From Oscillospiraceae bacterium (GTDB taxonomy: Bacteria; Bacillota; Clostridia; Oscillospirales; Ruminococcaceae), in the NCBI GenBank assembly GCA_031260665.1, contig JAISLD010000036.1, positions 1 through 64,000 of the forward strand: a DNA stretch of 64,000 bases, in the 5' to 3' direction. The notes under the pieces were generated by a model. It did no database searches, had not been told where the DNA came from, and saw only the letters and a list, made by a program, of their open reading frames with translations. Each line of letters opens with the position of its first letter. The first letter of the stretch is position 1. Below are positions 11,863-19,068 of this stretch, one piece after another. Both the position numbers and the translations under genes were made by a program.

Positions 11863-12555
11863 ATGGCATGGACACTATTACCTGTTAACTATACGGACGC
11901 TGTGTGGAGCGGACTCAAACGGTACAACCAAGTTAGTAACGAGGACGGTACTGTCTCGTTCCAAGATGTGACTCAGTATAGCAACAAAGAAACCTCGTTC
12001 TTCGGTGCTATAGACGCAAACCGTATGAACGAAGCACTAAACACTCTCATGTCTATGGTGGAGAACGGCACTGACCTTTACGGAGCGTTTCAGAACTACT
12101 TCAACACGCAAAAGGGATTGTTTGAGGACACCGCTGACGCTACCCAAGCGGATTTCACCTCTTACGTTGCCGCTCTGAGGGTCGAGGGAGACCATGCAAT
12201 CGACAGCATTAAGGTTGATTACAGAGCAGAAATGAACGTGTTTGAGAGTCAACAGCAAGCCCTTTTCACCACATGGTTTGATTTTATTAAGGGTCAACTC
12301 GGCTCAGACGTTGCCGGGAATTTGCAAAATCAAATCAACGCTCTTGACACGAAGACTGACGGTTTCGACCCTCGCACCACTGTTTTTTCGCAAGATGGCA
12401 AGAACATAACCGAGACCTACGGTGTCAAGAGAATCGAAACGGAGTTCGTGTCTAACAGCACGATTGTCCAAAAGCTCTACGAGAACAACGTGCTTGCTGT
12501 CACAAAGACAATCACATTCAATGCTGACGGAAGCATAAACGAGGAGGTAAATTAA
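11863..12555 (+). CDS. Tail fibre/adapter protein upstream of the DGR target
   Basis: A 230-residue protein starting immediately after the previous stop with AGGAGG upstream. The N-terminus 'MAWTLLPVNYTDAVWSGLKR' is followed by an alpha-helical region with 'GAFQNYFNTQKGLFEDTAD' and 'VFESQQQALFTTWFDFIKGQ', a pattern common in tail proteins of gut Firmicutes phages. The C-terminal 'VQKLYENNVLAVTKTITFNA' is beta-rich. It probably connects the tail tip to the receptor-binding protein encoded next. No enzymatic residues are visible. Confidence 0.6.
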   Translation: MAWTLLPVNYTDAVWSGLKRYNQVSNEDGTVSFQDVTQYSNKETSFFGAIDANRMNEALNTLMSMVENGTDLYGAFQNYFNTQKGLFEDTADATQADFTSYVAALRVEGDHAIDSIKVDYRAEMNVFESQQQALFTTWFDFIKGQLGSDVAGNLQNQINALDTKTDGFDPRTTVFSQDGKNITETYGVKRIETEFVSNSTIVQKLYENNVLAVTKTITFNADGSINEEVN

Positions 12556-14487
12556 ATGGGTTGGGCAGAAGCAAAATGGACGGTTGACAGTATCTTGCAG
12601 AAGATAGGTCAAGCTCCGAACAATATGAGAGCTTTTACAGCTTTCCCACTTTCTGCGACAAGTCTTGGGTTGCGCTTCTTAGAACCCGAAGACAGCTATG
12701 CGGACGGTAATCTTATTTGTTCTGTGAAGGGTGTCATGGTTCGCATGAGTACCACGGCTTATCCTACGAACATCAACGAAGGTACGCTTGTGGTTGACAA
12801 TCAAAACCTTGGAGCATATGAGACTGAGCCGTTTGTTATCGAAAATCTTACTGAGAGTACGGCTTACTACTTCTCGGCGTTCCCTTACTCCGTACAGGGA
12901 GTTTACAATTTGTCGAGCAACTCAAGTAACCGTTCCTCGGCTTCTCCTGCCGCCGGAGAAGCAGTCACGGTCAATGTAACCATTGATGATACGACAGGCT
13001 TCACCAGCGTCACGGTGACTTGTGTCAACGAGACTGACCCGGCGGCTACGTCAAGTAAAACCATCACTCCGACACTCAGCACAGCAAACTTTGTTGTTCC
13101 CATTGGTGACACCTATCATATCGGGTACGGTGCGGCGGACGGTTATTCCAAGCCGAACAACACGGCTCCCAAGGTCTCTGTGGCTGGTGCAAGCACGACC
13201 TATGAAGCGACTTATTACTATTTCTCCGCAACCATCAATGTCACTTACCCTGTGGGCGCAACCGTGACCTGTGTGTGCGAATCTACAAGCTATACCGCTC
13301 CTACCACTACTGGTAGCTATGCGTTTATAGTCCATAAGGTCGGCACTTGGGTTATCACTGCAACGCAAGGCTCAAACGTAGCGTCCACCTCTGTCGCAAT
13401 CACAACGGACGGTCAGACTGCCACCGTGGAACTTTCTTTCGTGAAAATCTACGGTATCAGCCGTGACATTACTTCGTCCTCTCCTGTTTGGGCGAGAACG
13501 GACAGTGCCGTTGGGAAGACCGCTACTGCTTCTGTGGGCGTAACCGCCGGGGTAAGTGATTTCGACATCTGTGAGCCTTGGAGCGGTATCGTGAGAGAAA
13601 CGCTTGCAAGCGGTGACGTGATGGTGAAGATTCCGAAATTCTACTTCCAACGCTACAAAGAGGGCAATGTTGAACATATCAGAATCGCTGATAAGTCCAC
13701 CCAAGGATTCACAGTTCACCCTCTATTCAAACACGCAGGAGTGGAAAGAGACTTCGCCTATGTCGGTGCTTACAAGACTTCCAGCAATAACAAATCTGTT
13801 TCCGGGGCAAGTCCGCAAGCGTCTCAAACAAGGGCAGTGTTCCGTACAAATGCGAAAGCAAAGGGTAGCGGTTGGGGATTGATTGACATTGCGGCTCTGT
13901 CTGCGATTCAAATGCTTATTCTCGTGGAGTTCGCAACGAACAATGTGCAGACCGCAATCGGTAGAGGATATTGCGACAGCAACAGTGCCGCACTCAGCGT
14001 AGGTTCTTGCAATACTGTTCCGAACCTCACTGGTAGACCTTCCGGCACGGACAGTAAGACCGATGTCGTATGGAGAGGTATCGAAGGGCTGTGGGGCAAT
14101 GTTTGGGAATGGGTAGACGGTGTGAACTGGAATGACGGTACTTATTATGTCTGCAATGACCCTTCCAAGTATGCAGATGATACCGCAACCAACTACACAC
14201 AGCTTTCCTTCGCAGGAGCTACGAACTGGTCTTCCTCCTATATCACCACCGAGGGGCTTGACACAGGTAGCAATGCTCATATCATGCTTCCTTCCGCCGC
14301 CGGAAGCGGTAGCGAGACCACATATCAGTGTGACGCTTGCTGGTCTTCTACAGGTTGGCGGGTGTTCCAACGCGGCGGTGCTTGGGTTGATGGGTCGGCG
14401 TGCGGTCTGTTTGCGGCTCATTTGGGCAACGCTTCCTCGACTTCCGGCGTGTACGTTGGCTCTCGCCTGCTTTATTTGCCCTCCTAA
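12556..14487 (+). CDS. DGR target: receptor-binding-type protein with C-terminal variable C-type-lectin-like domain
   Basis: A 643-residue protein. Residues about 1-130 carry a fibronectin-like segment, about 130-300 carry Ig-like/carbohydrate-binding repeats, and about 300-643 form a formylglycine-generating-enzyme/C-type-lectin-like domain ('AIQMLILVEFATNN', 'GLWGNVWEWVDGVNW'). The last 43 residues hold the variable repeat: 'RGGAWVDGSACGLF' against the template-coded HGGNWNNGSKCGLF. Variable positions are R606, A609, V611, D612, A615, A620, H622, G624, A626, T629, G631, V632, Y633, V634 and also W601 and R602. This is the architecture of known DGR-diversified ligand-binding proteins such as Mtd. 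It likely binds the host surface; the ligand is unknown. Confidence 0.88.
   Translation: MGWAEAKWTVDSILQKIGQAPNNMRAFTAFPLSATSLGLRFLEPEDSYADGNLICSVKGVMVRMSTTAYPTNINEGTLVVDNQNLGAYETEPFVIENLTESTAYYFSAFPYSVQGVYNLSSNSSNRSSASPAAGEAVTVNVTIDDTTGFTSVTVTCVNETDPAATSSKTITPTLSTANFVVPIGDTYHIGYGAADGYSKPNNTAPKVSVAGASTTYEATYYYFSATINVTYPVGATVTCVCESTSYTAPTTTGSYAFIVHKVGTWVITATQGSNVASTSVAITTDGQTATVELSFVKIYGISRDITSSSPVWARTDSAVGKTATASVGVTAGVSDFDICEPWSGIVRETLASGDVMVKIPKFYFQRYKEGNVEHIRIADKSTQGFTVHPLFKHAGVERDFAYVGAYKTSSNNKSVSGASPQASQTRAVFRTNAKAKGSGWGLIDIAALSAIQMLILVEFATNNVQTAIGRGYCDSNSAALSVGSCNTVPNLTGRPSGTDSKTDVVWRGIEGLWGNVWEWVDGVNWNDGTYYVCNDPSKYADDTATNYTQLSFAGATNWSSSYITTEGLDTGSNAHIMLPSAAGSGSETTYQCDACWSSTGWRVFQRGGAWVDGSACGLFAAHLGNASSTSGVYVGSRLLYLPS
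14354..14473 (+). repeat. DGR variable repeat (VR) at the 3' end of the target gene
   Basis: Aligned to 14567-14686 with a constant offset of 213 bases and no gaps. Over 14356-14473 (118 bases) there are 25 mismatches. 24 fall on adenines of the template copy (24 of its 32 adenines), replaced by G, C or T; one is a template C read as T (14450 versus 14663). The two bases before (14354, 14355) are further A-to-G and A-to-T changes. The last identical part, GGCTCTCGCCT with CTT, is the likely initiation-of-mutagenic-homology end. The repeat covers codons 601-639 of the target. Confidence 0.95.
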
Positions 14488-14493
14488 GGGGGT

Positions 14494-14513
14494 GTGGGGG
14501 ATTTCTCCCCCAC
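14494..14513. repeat. DGR target-recognition inverted repeat (8-bp stem, 4-base loop)
   Basis: GTGGGGGA (14494-14501), loop TTTC, TCCCCCAC (14506-14513): a perfect 8-bp palindromic stem with a 4-base loop, 7 bases after the target stop and 20 bases after the VR. On the minus strand the loop reads GAAA. In phage BPP-1 an 8-bp inverted repeat with a 4-base GNRA-like loop just after VR is needed for retargeting. The TR copy lacks it, as in BPP-1. It has no following T-run, so it is unlikely to be a simple terminator. Confidence 0.75.
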
Positions 14514-14566
14514 AAGTGGGTTGAGCAAATGAAAGAGAAGAACTCATGAGCAACAAGGCGAACAGT

Positions 14567-14686
14567 AAAAGCGAGTGTTCCAACACGGCGGTAATTGGAA
14601 TAATGGGTCGAAATGCGGTCTGTTTACGGCTAATTTGAACAACACTTCCTCGAATTCCAACACGAACATTGGCTCTCGCCTACTTT
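14567..14686 (+). repeat. DGR template repeat (TR)
   Basis: A non-coding copy of the VR lying between the target gene and the reverse transcriptase. In the VR-equivalent frame it carries nine AAY codons, the hallmark of DGR templates because adenine mutagenesis of AAY gives many amino acids but no stop codon. It would encode HGGNWNNGSKCGLF-like sequence and is preceded by an in-frame TAA, so it is not itself translated in that frame. It is expected to be transcribed and reverse-transcribed with adenine-directed errors, then copied into the VR. Confidence 0.95.
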
Positions 14687-14801
14687 TGTTAAAGCGTAAA
14701 AACCATAAAATACTGTTTCGCCGTACCCATTGGTAAAAAATAGTTTGGAGGGATAGGGTCAGTAGGTTCATTCTCGAAAGCCCTATAAGAGACAAAAGCA
14801 G
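14687..14801 (+). ncRNA. DGR spacer RNA region between TR and RT (putative)
   Basis: 115 bases separate the TR from the RT start codon and contain no plausible gene. In BPP-1 the RNA spacer downstream of TR primes and templates cDNA synthesis, so the corresponding region here is the likely functional TR-spacer RNA. It is A-rich with purine runs and has short complementarities such as GAAAGCCCT with AGGGATAGGG. No dedicated promoter is obvious, so it is probably made by read-through of the late operon. Role inferred from position only. Confidence 0.5.
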
Positions 14802-15899
14802 ATGAAAAGATTTGGATTCCTATACGAACAGATAGTCTCGGTTGAAAACTGCAAAGCGGCTATTATAAATGCTTCTGCGAAGAAACGAAGACGAAAGTCT
14901 GTGCAGGACATCACGAGCAATTTGGATTACTATGCTTCCGATTTATCGAAGCGGTTGATTGCTTTGGATTTCCTCACACCCTACAGAACTCGAATGATAA
15001 GGGACGGTCTTTCGGGGAAACAGAGGGAGCTACAAATACCTTCCTTTTACCCCGACCAATGCGCTCACCACGCAATCGTACAGATACTTCAACCTATCTT
15101 TATGAAATCGTCTTACCATTGGAGTTGCGCAAATATACCCAACAGGGGAATAGACCGTGCTTGCAAAGGCGTGGAGAGAGCCACGGTGAGAGACACCAAA
15201 CACGCAAAATACTGCGTGAAGATGGACATTCACAAATTCTATCCCTCTATTCCGCACGACAAACTCAAGGCTCGTCTTCGAGAGAAAATCAAGGACGAGA
15301 AAGCACTACAGATTATCGACAAGGTAATTGACTCCCATTCTCCGGGAATTCCAATCGGGAATTACACCTCGCCGTGGTTGGCGGAGTTCTATCTTCAACC
15401 GTTGGACTGGTTCATCAAACAGACGCTTGGGGTAAGACACTATATCCGCTATGCCGATGATTTGGTGCTAATAGGCAGTAACAAGCGAGAACTGCGAAAA
15501 GCAATGAACGCCATCATGGAGTTCATAAAGGACTTGGGCATGGAAGTGAAGCACGATTACCAGTTGTTTCGGATTCAGCGAAATTGCAAAGAGAAGAAAC
15601 AGCGCAAAGGTCGAAAGATTGACTTCGTTGGTAGGTGCTTCGGGATAGGTTTTACCACTATCCGAAAGAGACGTGCGCTGGCTCTTATGAGACAGAGCAG
15701 ATATATTCAGAAGCTCCAACGGACAAATCGTCCTGTGCCGTACAGAGTGGCTTCCGGCTTCTTGTCTCGATGTGCCTGTTTCAAACACACCAACTCGCAA
15801 GCTATGAAGAAAAAATACTACGACACTGTGAACATCAAAAAGCTAAAGGAGGTAATCAGCAATGAGAGTAAGAGGAAATGTCTCGCCCAATGCGCTTGA
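14802..15899 (+). CDS. DGR reverse transcriptase
   Basis: A 365-residue RT. Visible motifs: 'CVKMDIHKFYPSIPHDKL' (catalytic Asp about 142), 'GIPIGNYTSPWLAEFYL' (motif 4, residues 183-199), and 'HYIRYADDLVLIG' (catalytic YADD, residues 217-220). The thumb-like C-terminus is basic. DGR RTs usually have [IVL]GxxxSQ in motif 4; here it is IGNYTSP, so the SQ glutamine is proline. The gene follows the TR and is the only RT in view, and the adenine-specific VR/TR pattern identifies the class. Its ribosome binding site is poor, suggesting low expression. Its 3' end overlaps the next gene by 38 bases. Confidence 0.92.
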   Translation: MKRFGFLYEQIVSVENCKAAIINASAKKRRRKSVQDITSNLDYYASDLSKRLIALDFLTPYRTRMIRDGLSGKQRELQIPSFYPDQCAHHAIVQILQPIFMKSSYHWSCANIPNRGIDRACKGVERATVRDTKHAKYCVKMDIHKFYPSIPHDKLKARLREKIKDEKALQIIDKVIDSHSPGIPIGNYTSPWLAEFYLQPLDWFIKQTLGVRHYIRYADDLVLIGSNKRELRKAMNAIMEFIKDLGMEVKHDYQLFRIQRNCKEKKQRKGRKIDFVGRCFGIGFTTIRKRRALALMRQSRYIQKLQRTNRPVPYRVASGFLSRCACFKHTNSQAMKKKYYDTVNIKKLKEVISNESKRKCLAQCA

Positions 15900-16200
15900 C
15901 ATCGAACCGTATGCCCCTACGTTGGGGTATGTGGAGGTCAGACTTCGTGAGAATATCAATGAACTCTCCGTATCTGACGAAATGACCGAGACCCCCATCA
16001 CAATGTACGAATATGACGAGTACACGTTCGTTCTGAGGGAAAAGGAGGGTTTACAGGCGGACATCGAAGCCAATATGGACGATTGGCTTACGACAGGCCG
16101 CACCTTGGAGGTTGACCCAATGGCAACGCTATATGTAACTGCGAGAGTCAGTGCCATTGACGAATACACGGAGGAACTTATCAAGGAGGGATTACTGTAA
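15862..16200 (+). CDS. Small phage tail-region protein upstream of XkdX-like gene
   Basis: A 112-residue acidic protein starting inside the RT gene with a strong AAAGGAGG ribosome binding site at 15845-15852. It is beta-rich in the middle ('TPITMYEYDEYTFVLREKEG') and ends with 'YTEELIKEGLL'. Proteins of this style precede XkdX genes in tail modules. It was considered as an Avd accessory factor, but Avd proteins are basic four-helix bundles and this one is acidic and strand-rich. Function unknown. Confidence 0.65.
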   Translation: MRVRGNVSPNALDIEPYAPTLGYVEVRLRENINELSVSDEMTETPITMYEYDEYTFVLREKEGLQADIEANMDDWLTTGRTLEVDPMATLYVTARVSAIDEYTEELIKEGLL

Positions 16201-16361
16201 TGAGTACCTTAGTCGAAAGTTTGAAAAGGCTTTACACAAAGCAAAGGCTCACCAAAGAGCAAATGGTCGAAAGGGTTGAAAAAGGTACTATCACGGCGGA
16301 GGAGTACAAATATGTCACCACTGAGGAGTATGTTTTGCCGGGAGATTCGCCCATAGGCTAA
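16200..16361 (+). CDS. XkdX-like small phage protein (53 residues)
   Basis: A 53-residue ORF too short for the ORF track. It begins at ATG 16200, overlapping the previous stop (TAATG), preceded by AAGGAGG. The sequence 'LKRLYTKQRLTKEQMVERVE' and 'GTITAEEYKYVTTEEY' follows the XkdX pattern (hydrophobic/Tyr helix, then G-x-I-T-x-E-E-Y). XkdX proteins are small tail-module proteins of Bacillus/Clostridia phages of unknown exact role. Overlap and ribosome binding site strongly support that it is real. Confidence 0.75.
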   Translation: MSTLVESLKRLYTKQRLTKEQMVERVEKGTITAEEYKYVTTEEYVLPGDSPIG

Positions 16362-16392
16362 TCCGAGAAAACCTTAAAAGGGAGGACACCAT

Positions 16393-16713
16393 ATGATTTC
16401 AGCAACCACACTACTCGTCAGCATTGTCGGAGCTATCTTTGCAAGCACAGGGTTTTGGGCTTTCCTCACCGCTATGATTCAGCGGAGAGACAAGAAGGAA
16501 AGCGCAGAAGCTCAAATGCTCAAAGGGCTTGGGCATGACCGAATTTGCTACCTCGGTTCGTGCTACATGGCACAAGGCTTTATCACAAAGGACGATTACG
16601 AGAATCTTCACGATTACTTGTATTCTCCCTATAAAAAGCTTGGTGGGAACGGCACGGCTGAAAAAATCATGAAAGAGGTAGACAAGCTACCCATGAAAGA
16701 AAAGGAGGGTTAA
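16393..16713 (+). CDS. Phage small membrane protein next to lysis genes
   Basis: A 106-residue protein with one N-terminal membrane helix (about residues 4-28, 'TTLLVSIVGAIFASTGFWAF') and a soluble tail with 'GLGHDRICYLGSCYMAQGFI' and 'YKKLGGNGTAEKIM', a pattern recurrent in phage lysis modules. GGGAGGA precedes the ATG. It is followed 2 bases later by the endolysin. It may assist or regulate lysis, but it is not a classical holin by sequence. Function inferred. Confidence 0.65.
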   Translation: MISATTLLVSIVGAIFASTGFWAFLTAMIQRRDKKESAEAQMLKGLGHDRICYLGSCYMAQGFITKDDYENLHDYLYSPYKKLGGNGTAEKIMKEVDKLPMKEKEG

Positions 16714-18725: not shown

Positions 18726-19068
18726 TGGTGGAGCCGAGGAGAATCGAACTCCTGTCCGAAAATACTTCACGCGGTTTTTCTACAAGCTTAGTCAATCGTA
18801 ATCTCAGCGCACGGCAGACAAGTGACAGACCACCGTGCGAGCCGCCTTTGATAAAACGCCGCTTAAAGGCATAGGCGGCGAGGTTTGCCGTTTAGTTTAC
18901 GCCCGAATCCGTGTCAACGGCAAAGCTCGGTCGGACGCAAGCAGCCCTTAGGCTGCTTGGAGTTCTAATTTATTGTTAGCGTTTATTTGTTTTTGCCCGG
19001 ATTAAACAGACGTGCGGCTGTGCTTGCTTAACTGCGCCGGATATCCCCGTCGAAACCTTTACGGCCCC
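18726..19068 (-). ncRNA. ssrA: Transfer-messenger RNA
   Basis: About 343 bases. The 5' end reads GGGGCCGTAAAGGTTTCGAC and the 3' end GGAGTTCGATTCTCCTCGG + CTCCACCA; the two ends pair to make the tRNA-like acceptor stem, and CCA is encoded. The tag reading frame starts at GCT (complement of 18980) and ends at TAA (18948-18950): ANNKLELQAA. A hairpin (CAAGCAGCC with GGCTGCTTG) follows the tag stop. tmRNA with SmpB rescues stalled ribosomes and marks the nascent chain for proteolysis. The prophage abuts its 3' end, a known integration target. Confidence 0.96.

Follow-up and report, generated by a model that had tools for sequence, protein, structure and literature searches.

It is very likely, with a probability that we put at about 0.96, that the cassette at positions 12556-15899 is a phage-borne diversity-generating retroelement (DGR), in which a tail-protein gene ending in a variable repeat (VR) is followed by a hairpin, a template repeat (TR), an RNA spacer and a reverse transcriptase (RT). 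The window analysed here is the whole stretch of 64,000 nucleotides at the start of contig JAISLD010000036.1, from an Oscillospiraceae bacterium, and the features within it are collected in Table 1. A first-pass annotation, made from the letters alone, had named the same parts, and every one of them was located; its description of the element as complete holds for these parts but not beyond them, since no Avd gene was found and the prophage runs off the contig on its left side. As far as sequence can tell, the cassette is a genuine and apparently functional DGR of a well-known kind, one clean example added to the many known.

Table 1. Positions of the cassette parts and of the prophage edge within the window.
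Feature	Position	Strand	Basis
Phage tail protein gene (target; 643 aa) with predicted C-terminal C-type-lectin-like domain	12556..14487	+	phrog_5302 3e-65; model matches TaqVP, Mtd
Variable repeat (VR)	14358..14473	+	22/23 differences from TR at TR adenines
Hairpin 3' of VR, 9-bp stem, TTTC loop	14493..14514	+	stem conserved in relatives
Template repeat (TR), non-coding	14571..14686	+	self-comparison, positional alignment with VR
Template RNA spacer (very likely)	14687..14801	+	RT-18 (RF03021) match 14724-14801
Spacer helices	14724-14727/14732-14735 and 14753-14758/14781-14786	+	predicted
Reverse transcriptase of DGR type (365 aa; IGNYTSP in motif 4; YADD active site)	14802..15899	+	PF00078, phrog_1423, best solved relative 8ub7
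Host tmRNA gene, right edge of prophage	18726-19068	-	phage module ends, host genes follow

Adenine-directed divergence in a phage tail protein

Self-comparison of positions 12000-16500 yields one strong direct repeat, formed by a VR at the 3' end of the target gene, ending 14 nt short of the end of the open reading frame, and a TR placed between the target gene and the RT. The two align without gaps over 116 bp with 23 differences, all but one at TR adenines (22 of the 30 adenines are changed), a concentration with a hypergeometric p of 4e-16. The adenine is replaced by G at 16 positions, by C at four and by T at two, and the sole remaining difference in this core is a C in the TR that reads T in the VR at 14450. 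The figures given in the first-pass annotation (118 bases, 25 differences, 24 of 32 adenines and one C/T) are reproduced exactly when the alignment is extended to 14356; the two positions beyond the core form an ambiguous edge, and the strict 116-bp core was used for the statistics. Within that core 14 residues of the protein are altered and two changed codons are silent, close to the earlier estimate of about 15 altered residues. A search of the whole genome with the TR returned nothing above chance other than the TR and VR themselves, with no second DGR target elsewhere, and the element therefore has one target; the genome also holds one RT of the DGR kind.

The inverted repeat earlier described as flanking the VR is real: TGTGGGGGA-TTTC-TCCCCCACA begins 19 nt after the VR, just outside the target reading frame. 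Most members of the family carry a G5/C5 stem about as far from the VR, with loops that vary, and stems of at least 7 occur in 4% of random stretches drawn from the same loci. Phage DGRs studied earlier carry GC-rich stems of 7-10 bp, placed 4-34 bp after the VR and bearing 5'GRNA loops (PMC3240598); the GC-rich stem of the cassette and its distance fit that description, whereas its TTTC loop departs from GRNA.

A Pfam search with the target protein gave no match. A profile of 26 related C-termini matches 5vf4 (1.3e-13), and an AlphaFold2 model of the target C-terminus (pLDDT 82, pTM 0.87) finds its best PDB match in the Thermus DGR variable protein TaqVP, at an E value of 1e-12 and a moderate TM-score (0.55), followed by Bordetella Mtd variants and sulfatase-modifying-enzyme-like folds. 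These matches of profile and predicted structure to solved DGR variable proteins argue for the C-type-lectin-like domain that had been asserted from the sequence, and the position and family of the target suggest that it may be a receptor-binding protein.

Upstream of the target lie head and tail genes, among them those for an SU10-type major capsid protein and a tail tube, and on the downstream side the RT is accompanied by small genes and by those for an endolysin and a holin. The contig starts inside the phage, and the phage module stops at the tmRNA, past which there are host genes such as those for a SpoIVB-type peptidase and methionine synthase; the phage is therefore integrated, with its right junction at the tmRNA, which bears out the earlier assignment to a prophage. 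The tmRNA is a probable site of attachment. The assembly showed no second copy of its end that would make a convincing left attachment site, and no phage records similar at the DNA level were found.

The reverse transcriptase and its motif 4

The RT matches PF00078 (3.6e-18) and phrog_1423 (1.3e-90), and it groups with the RTs of loci with adenine-biased TR/VR pairs in a tree whose rows include no non-DGR outgroup. Among solved structures the profile of the RT family ranks 8ub7 first (E 1e-54), which we take to be the BPP-1 RT complex, with group II intron RTs far behind at 1e-34. In motif 4, the (I/V/L)GxxxSQ signature that is common among DGR RTs, and not strictly defining, is replaced by IGNYTSP. 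An SP ending is found in group II RTs as well, and models for group II, retron and Drt3a enzymes appear among the NCBIfam matches of the protein, as might be expected if the gene encoded a defence RT, or belonged to a retron or group II intron, and happened to lie beside an unrelated gene duplication. These matches all fall far below their cut-offs, however, the DGR RT structure is the one ranked first in the profile search, plain duplication leaves the adenine-only divergence unexplained, and the same arrangement, with its adenine-biased TR/VR pairing, is common to 63 related loci, so that we assign this explanation a very small probability. With scores so far under the cut-offs, group II, retron and DRT identities of the RT were rejected.

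For an enzyme read as a DGR RT, the SP ending is a known variation, here with many examples, because it has been documented both in DiGReF, where 15 of 155 DGRs deviate in the last two residues of the SQ motif, SP included (PMC3521204), and in the published DGR of the crAss-like phage crAssE-Sib, which has a GxxxSP RT (PMC11054128). Those elements likewise have RTs that depart from SQ, but they belong to other phages, and here ten relatives of one clade combine SP with an adenine pattern that was verified. Among about 85 tabulated loci SP occurs in the clade of the cassette (nine distinct RTs on one fork, support 100/100) and separately in L128, with SA in two sister rows of the SP clade. SP and SQ loci are alike in the fraction of adenines changed (0.60 versus 0.61, p = 0.80), in the rate of change at other bases (0.8% versus 0.7%, p = 0.66) and in the spectrum of A to G, C or T changes (p = 0.55), and no distinct mutation spectrum was found for SP enzymes. 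The SP clade thus keeps the adenine-only pattern, and the Q of the SQ signature therefore seems dispensable for errors at adenines. DGRs of the SP type may escape tools that look for SQ. A separate observation concerns crAssphage cr52_1 (L016, 5001-6023), in which the standard code puts six stops in the RT frame, perhaps because a stop codon is recoded, and in which all 22 differences of the neighbouring TR/VR pair (22 of 22) fall at A; with these stops in frame under that code, it was left out of the RT alignment.

The spacer RNA and the accessory protein

The spacer matches the Rfam family RT-18 at 43.8 bits, against a curated threshold of 41.3. In this DGR lineage RT-18 very likely forms the spacer of the template RNA, because it occupies the same place, between TR and RT, in 40 of the 51 scanned loci with an identified TR/VR and because its predicted structure covaries: an alignment of 37 spacers predicts ten pairs, nine of them with compensatory changes on both sides as a raw pair count. 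Taken singly, the spacer has an unremarkable folding energy (z = 0.38), and the structure shows in the alignment only. Carriers of RT-18 include L008, L009, L040 and L066, in L018 the match precedes the RT (1500-base flank of the locus), and RT-17 overlaps RT-18. The spacer of BPP-1 is folded; it recruits the complex of RT and Avd, and cDNA synthesis is primed from an adenine within it (PMC12875486). By analogy, RT-18 would most naturally be read as the counterpart of that folded spacer, and placing it there gives the Rfam family a testable role.

Other DGR lineages carry the Rfam families RT-4 and RT-14 at the TR-to-RT position (L014 4858-4974; L021 2084-2270, minus strand), and these placements suggest that a DGR spacer role may be shared by several of the RT-n RNA families. 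RT-4 precedes the RT in Faecalibacterium phage Epona, and an RT-14 match lies directly 3' of the TR in the congener G045.

Searches for the accessory protein Avd, a common though not strictly defining DGR component, gave no match to PF22296 (bAvd) in the whole host genome, a 95.6% complete assembly, none to PF05635 in the genome, and none to the bAvd model in 49 related records, many of which are fragments. The 112-aa gene at 15862-16200, which overlaps the end of the RT and was considered as an accessory gene, has no family match in Pfam, PHROG or NCBIfam. Avd is essential in BPP-1 (PMC12875486), and an Avd too divergent for the model is conceivable, one congener scoring below the cut-off, which leaves room for an element that depends on Avd from another source or on a substitute that escapes recognition. 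We consider such a dependence rather unlikely, given that the host genome and the related records are without a bAvd match, that the VR and TR lie too close together to leave room for the gene, and that the same PF22296 search does detect Avd in three congeners (L138, L139 and L137, two above the cut-off and one just below), where it adjoins their own DGR RTs. One of these three, G066, has an Avd-bearing DGR together with an RT-18 DGR that has no second Avd, and more generally Avd is nearby in 62% of DGR RTs in complete genomes, DGRs that lack it being known (PMC8934634). The lineage seems to work without a recognisable Avd, and would thus offer a minimal RT-plus-RNA system for comparison with BPP-1. 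Our broader proposal, which we advance tentatively and consider rather unlikely, is that RT-18 marks a large Avd-independent phage DGR lineage in which structured spacer RNA and RT alone would carry out the recruitment and priming for which BPP-1 uses RT together with Avd, and that RT-18, RT-17, RT-4 and RT-14 serve different DGR lineages as the spacers of their template RNAs.

Recent activity, mechanism and known systems

There is good evidence that the DGR has recently been active in the lineage of the cassette, because L043 and L046, two members of the SP clade with identical TRs, diverge in the VR (13 VR differences, 13 of 13 at TR adenines) against only 6 differences across the 1500 bp upstream of the VR. 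This comparison, made within the same RT clade, speaks for the earlier description of the element as active or recently active, for which a comparison of the VR with related prophages had been proposed. In the more distant SQ pair L080/L081 an ungapped comparison over 7 kb shows 20 substitutions, all of them in the VR and all at TR adenines. These two pairs, along with L069/L070 and L101/L012, are close phage pairs with identical TRs whose VRs differ almost solely at template adenines, and they are good material for gauging DGR turnover. A further DGR, with 29 of 29 TR/VR differences at adenines, was seen in a Methanosaeta genome assembly (L041, 1991-2281).

A once functional DGR that has since decayed, now silent with its VR fixed in the lysogen, might also present an element without a detectable Avd and with one non-A difference in its VR, and the comparisons that indicate activity are between sequences of relatives. 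Yet the RT frame is full length with its YADD intact, the reading frame is kept across the VR, the single non-A difference matches what is seen in relatives (0.8% of non-A sites), and the whole lineage seems to be without Avd while its members still diversify; we consider decay improbable.

For a functional element the mechanism, judged from sequence, is adenine-specific mutagenic retrohoming. The TR and the folded RT-18-type spacer would most likely be transcribed as a template RNA, the spacer would recruit the RT and set priming near the 3' end of the TR, and the RT, in copying the TR into cDNA, would make errors opposite adenines alone. With the 3' end common to TR and VR and the downstream hairpin as guides, this cDNA would then take the place of the VR at the end of the tail-protein gene, and the phage would in this way vary a C-type-lectin-like tail tip, probably shifting the host surface that it binds. 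The process seems to run without a recognisable Avd and with SP in place of SQ in motif 4 of the RT. Direct support for this scheme comes from the parts themselves, the adenine-only pattern, the conservation of spacer structure, the fold class of the target and the VR-only divergence of close relatives; transcription, priming, cDNA integration and receptor switching are modelled on the BPP-1 prototype.

The nearest relatives are a Lacrimispora defluvii contig (L040) and the IMG/VR contigs L003, L006, L007, L043, L044, L047 and L059, with RTs 63-85% identical to that of the cassette. They have in common with it the SP motif, a homologous spacer, the hairpin and the target family, and their TR/VR differences are almost exclusively at adenines, each with TR and VR sequences of its own. 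DGR-type elements of Butyrivibrio phage Arawn and Lactobacillus phage LBR48 are more remote, with RTs 37-40% identical, and differ from the cassette in having the SQ motif. Arawn has the same order of target, TR and RT, with 9 of 9 TR/VR differences at A, and its spacer is not called as RT-18; LBR48 has RT-18 upstream of the RT, and a TR/VR was not found in its linear record, which starts near the RT. With the BPP-1 DGR (mtd-avd-TR-brt) the cassette shares adenine-specific divergence of VR from TR, a tail-tip gene of predicted C-type-lectin-like fold whose 3' end carries the VR, a hairpin after the VR, a structured spacer between TR and RT, and a related RT. It differs from BPP-1 in having no avd, its VR-TR gap being too short for one, in a motif 4 that ends in SP, in a hairpin loop that is TTTC rather than GRNA, and in its target protein. 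As departures from the prototype, the SP motif and the lack of a recognisable Avd both lie inside known DGR variation.
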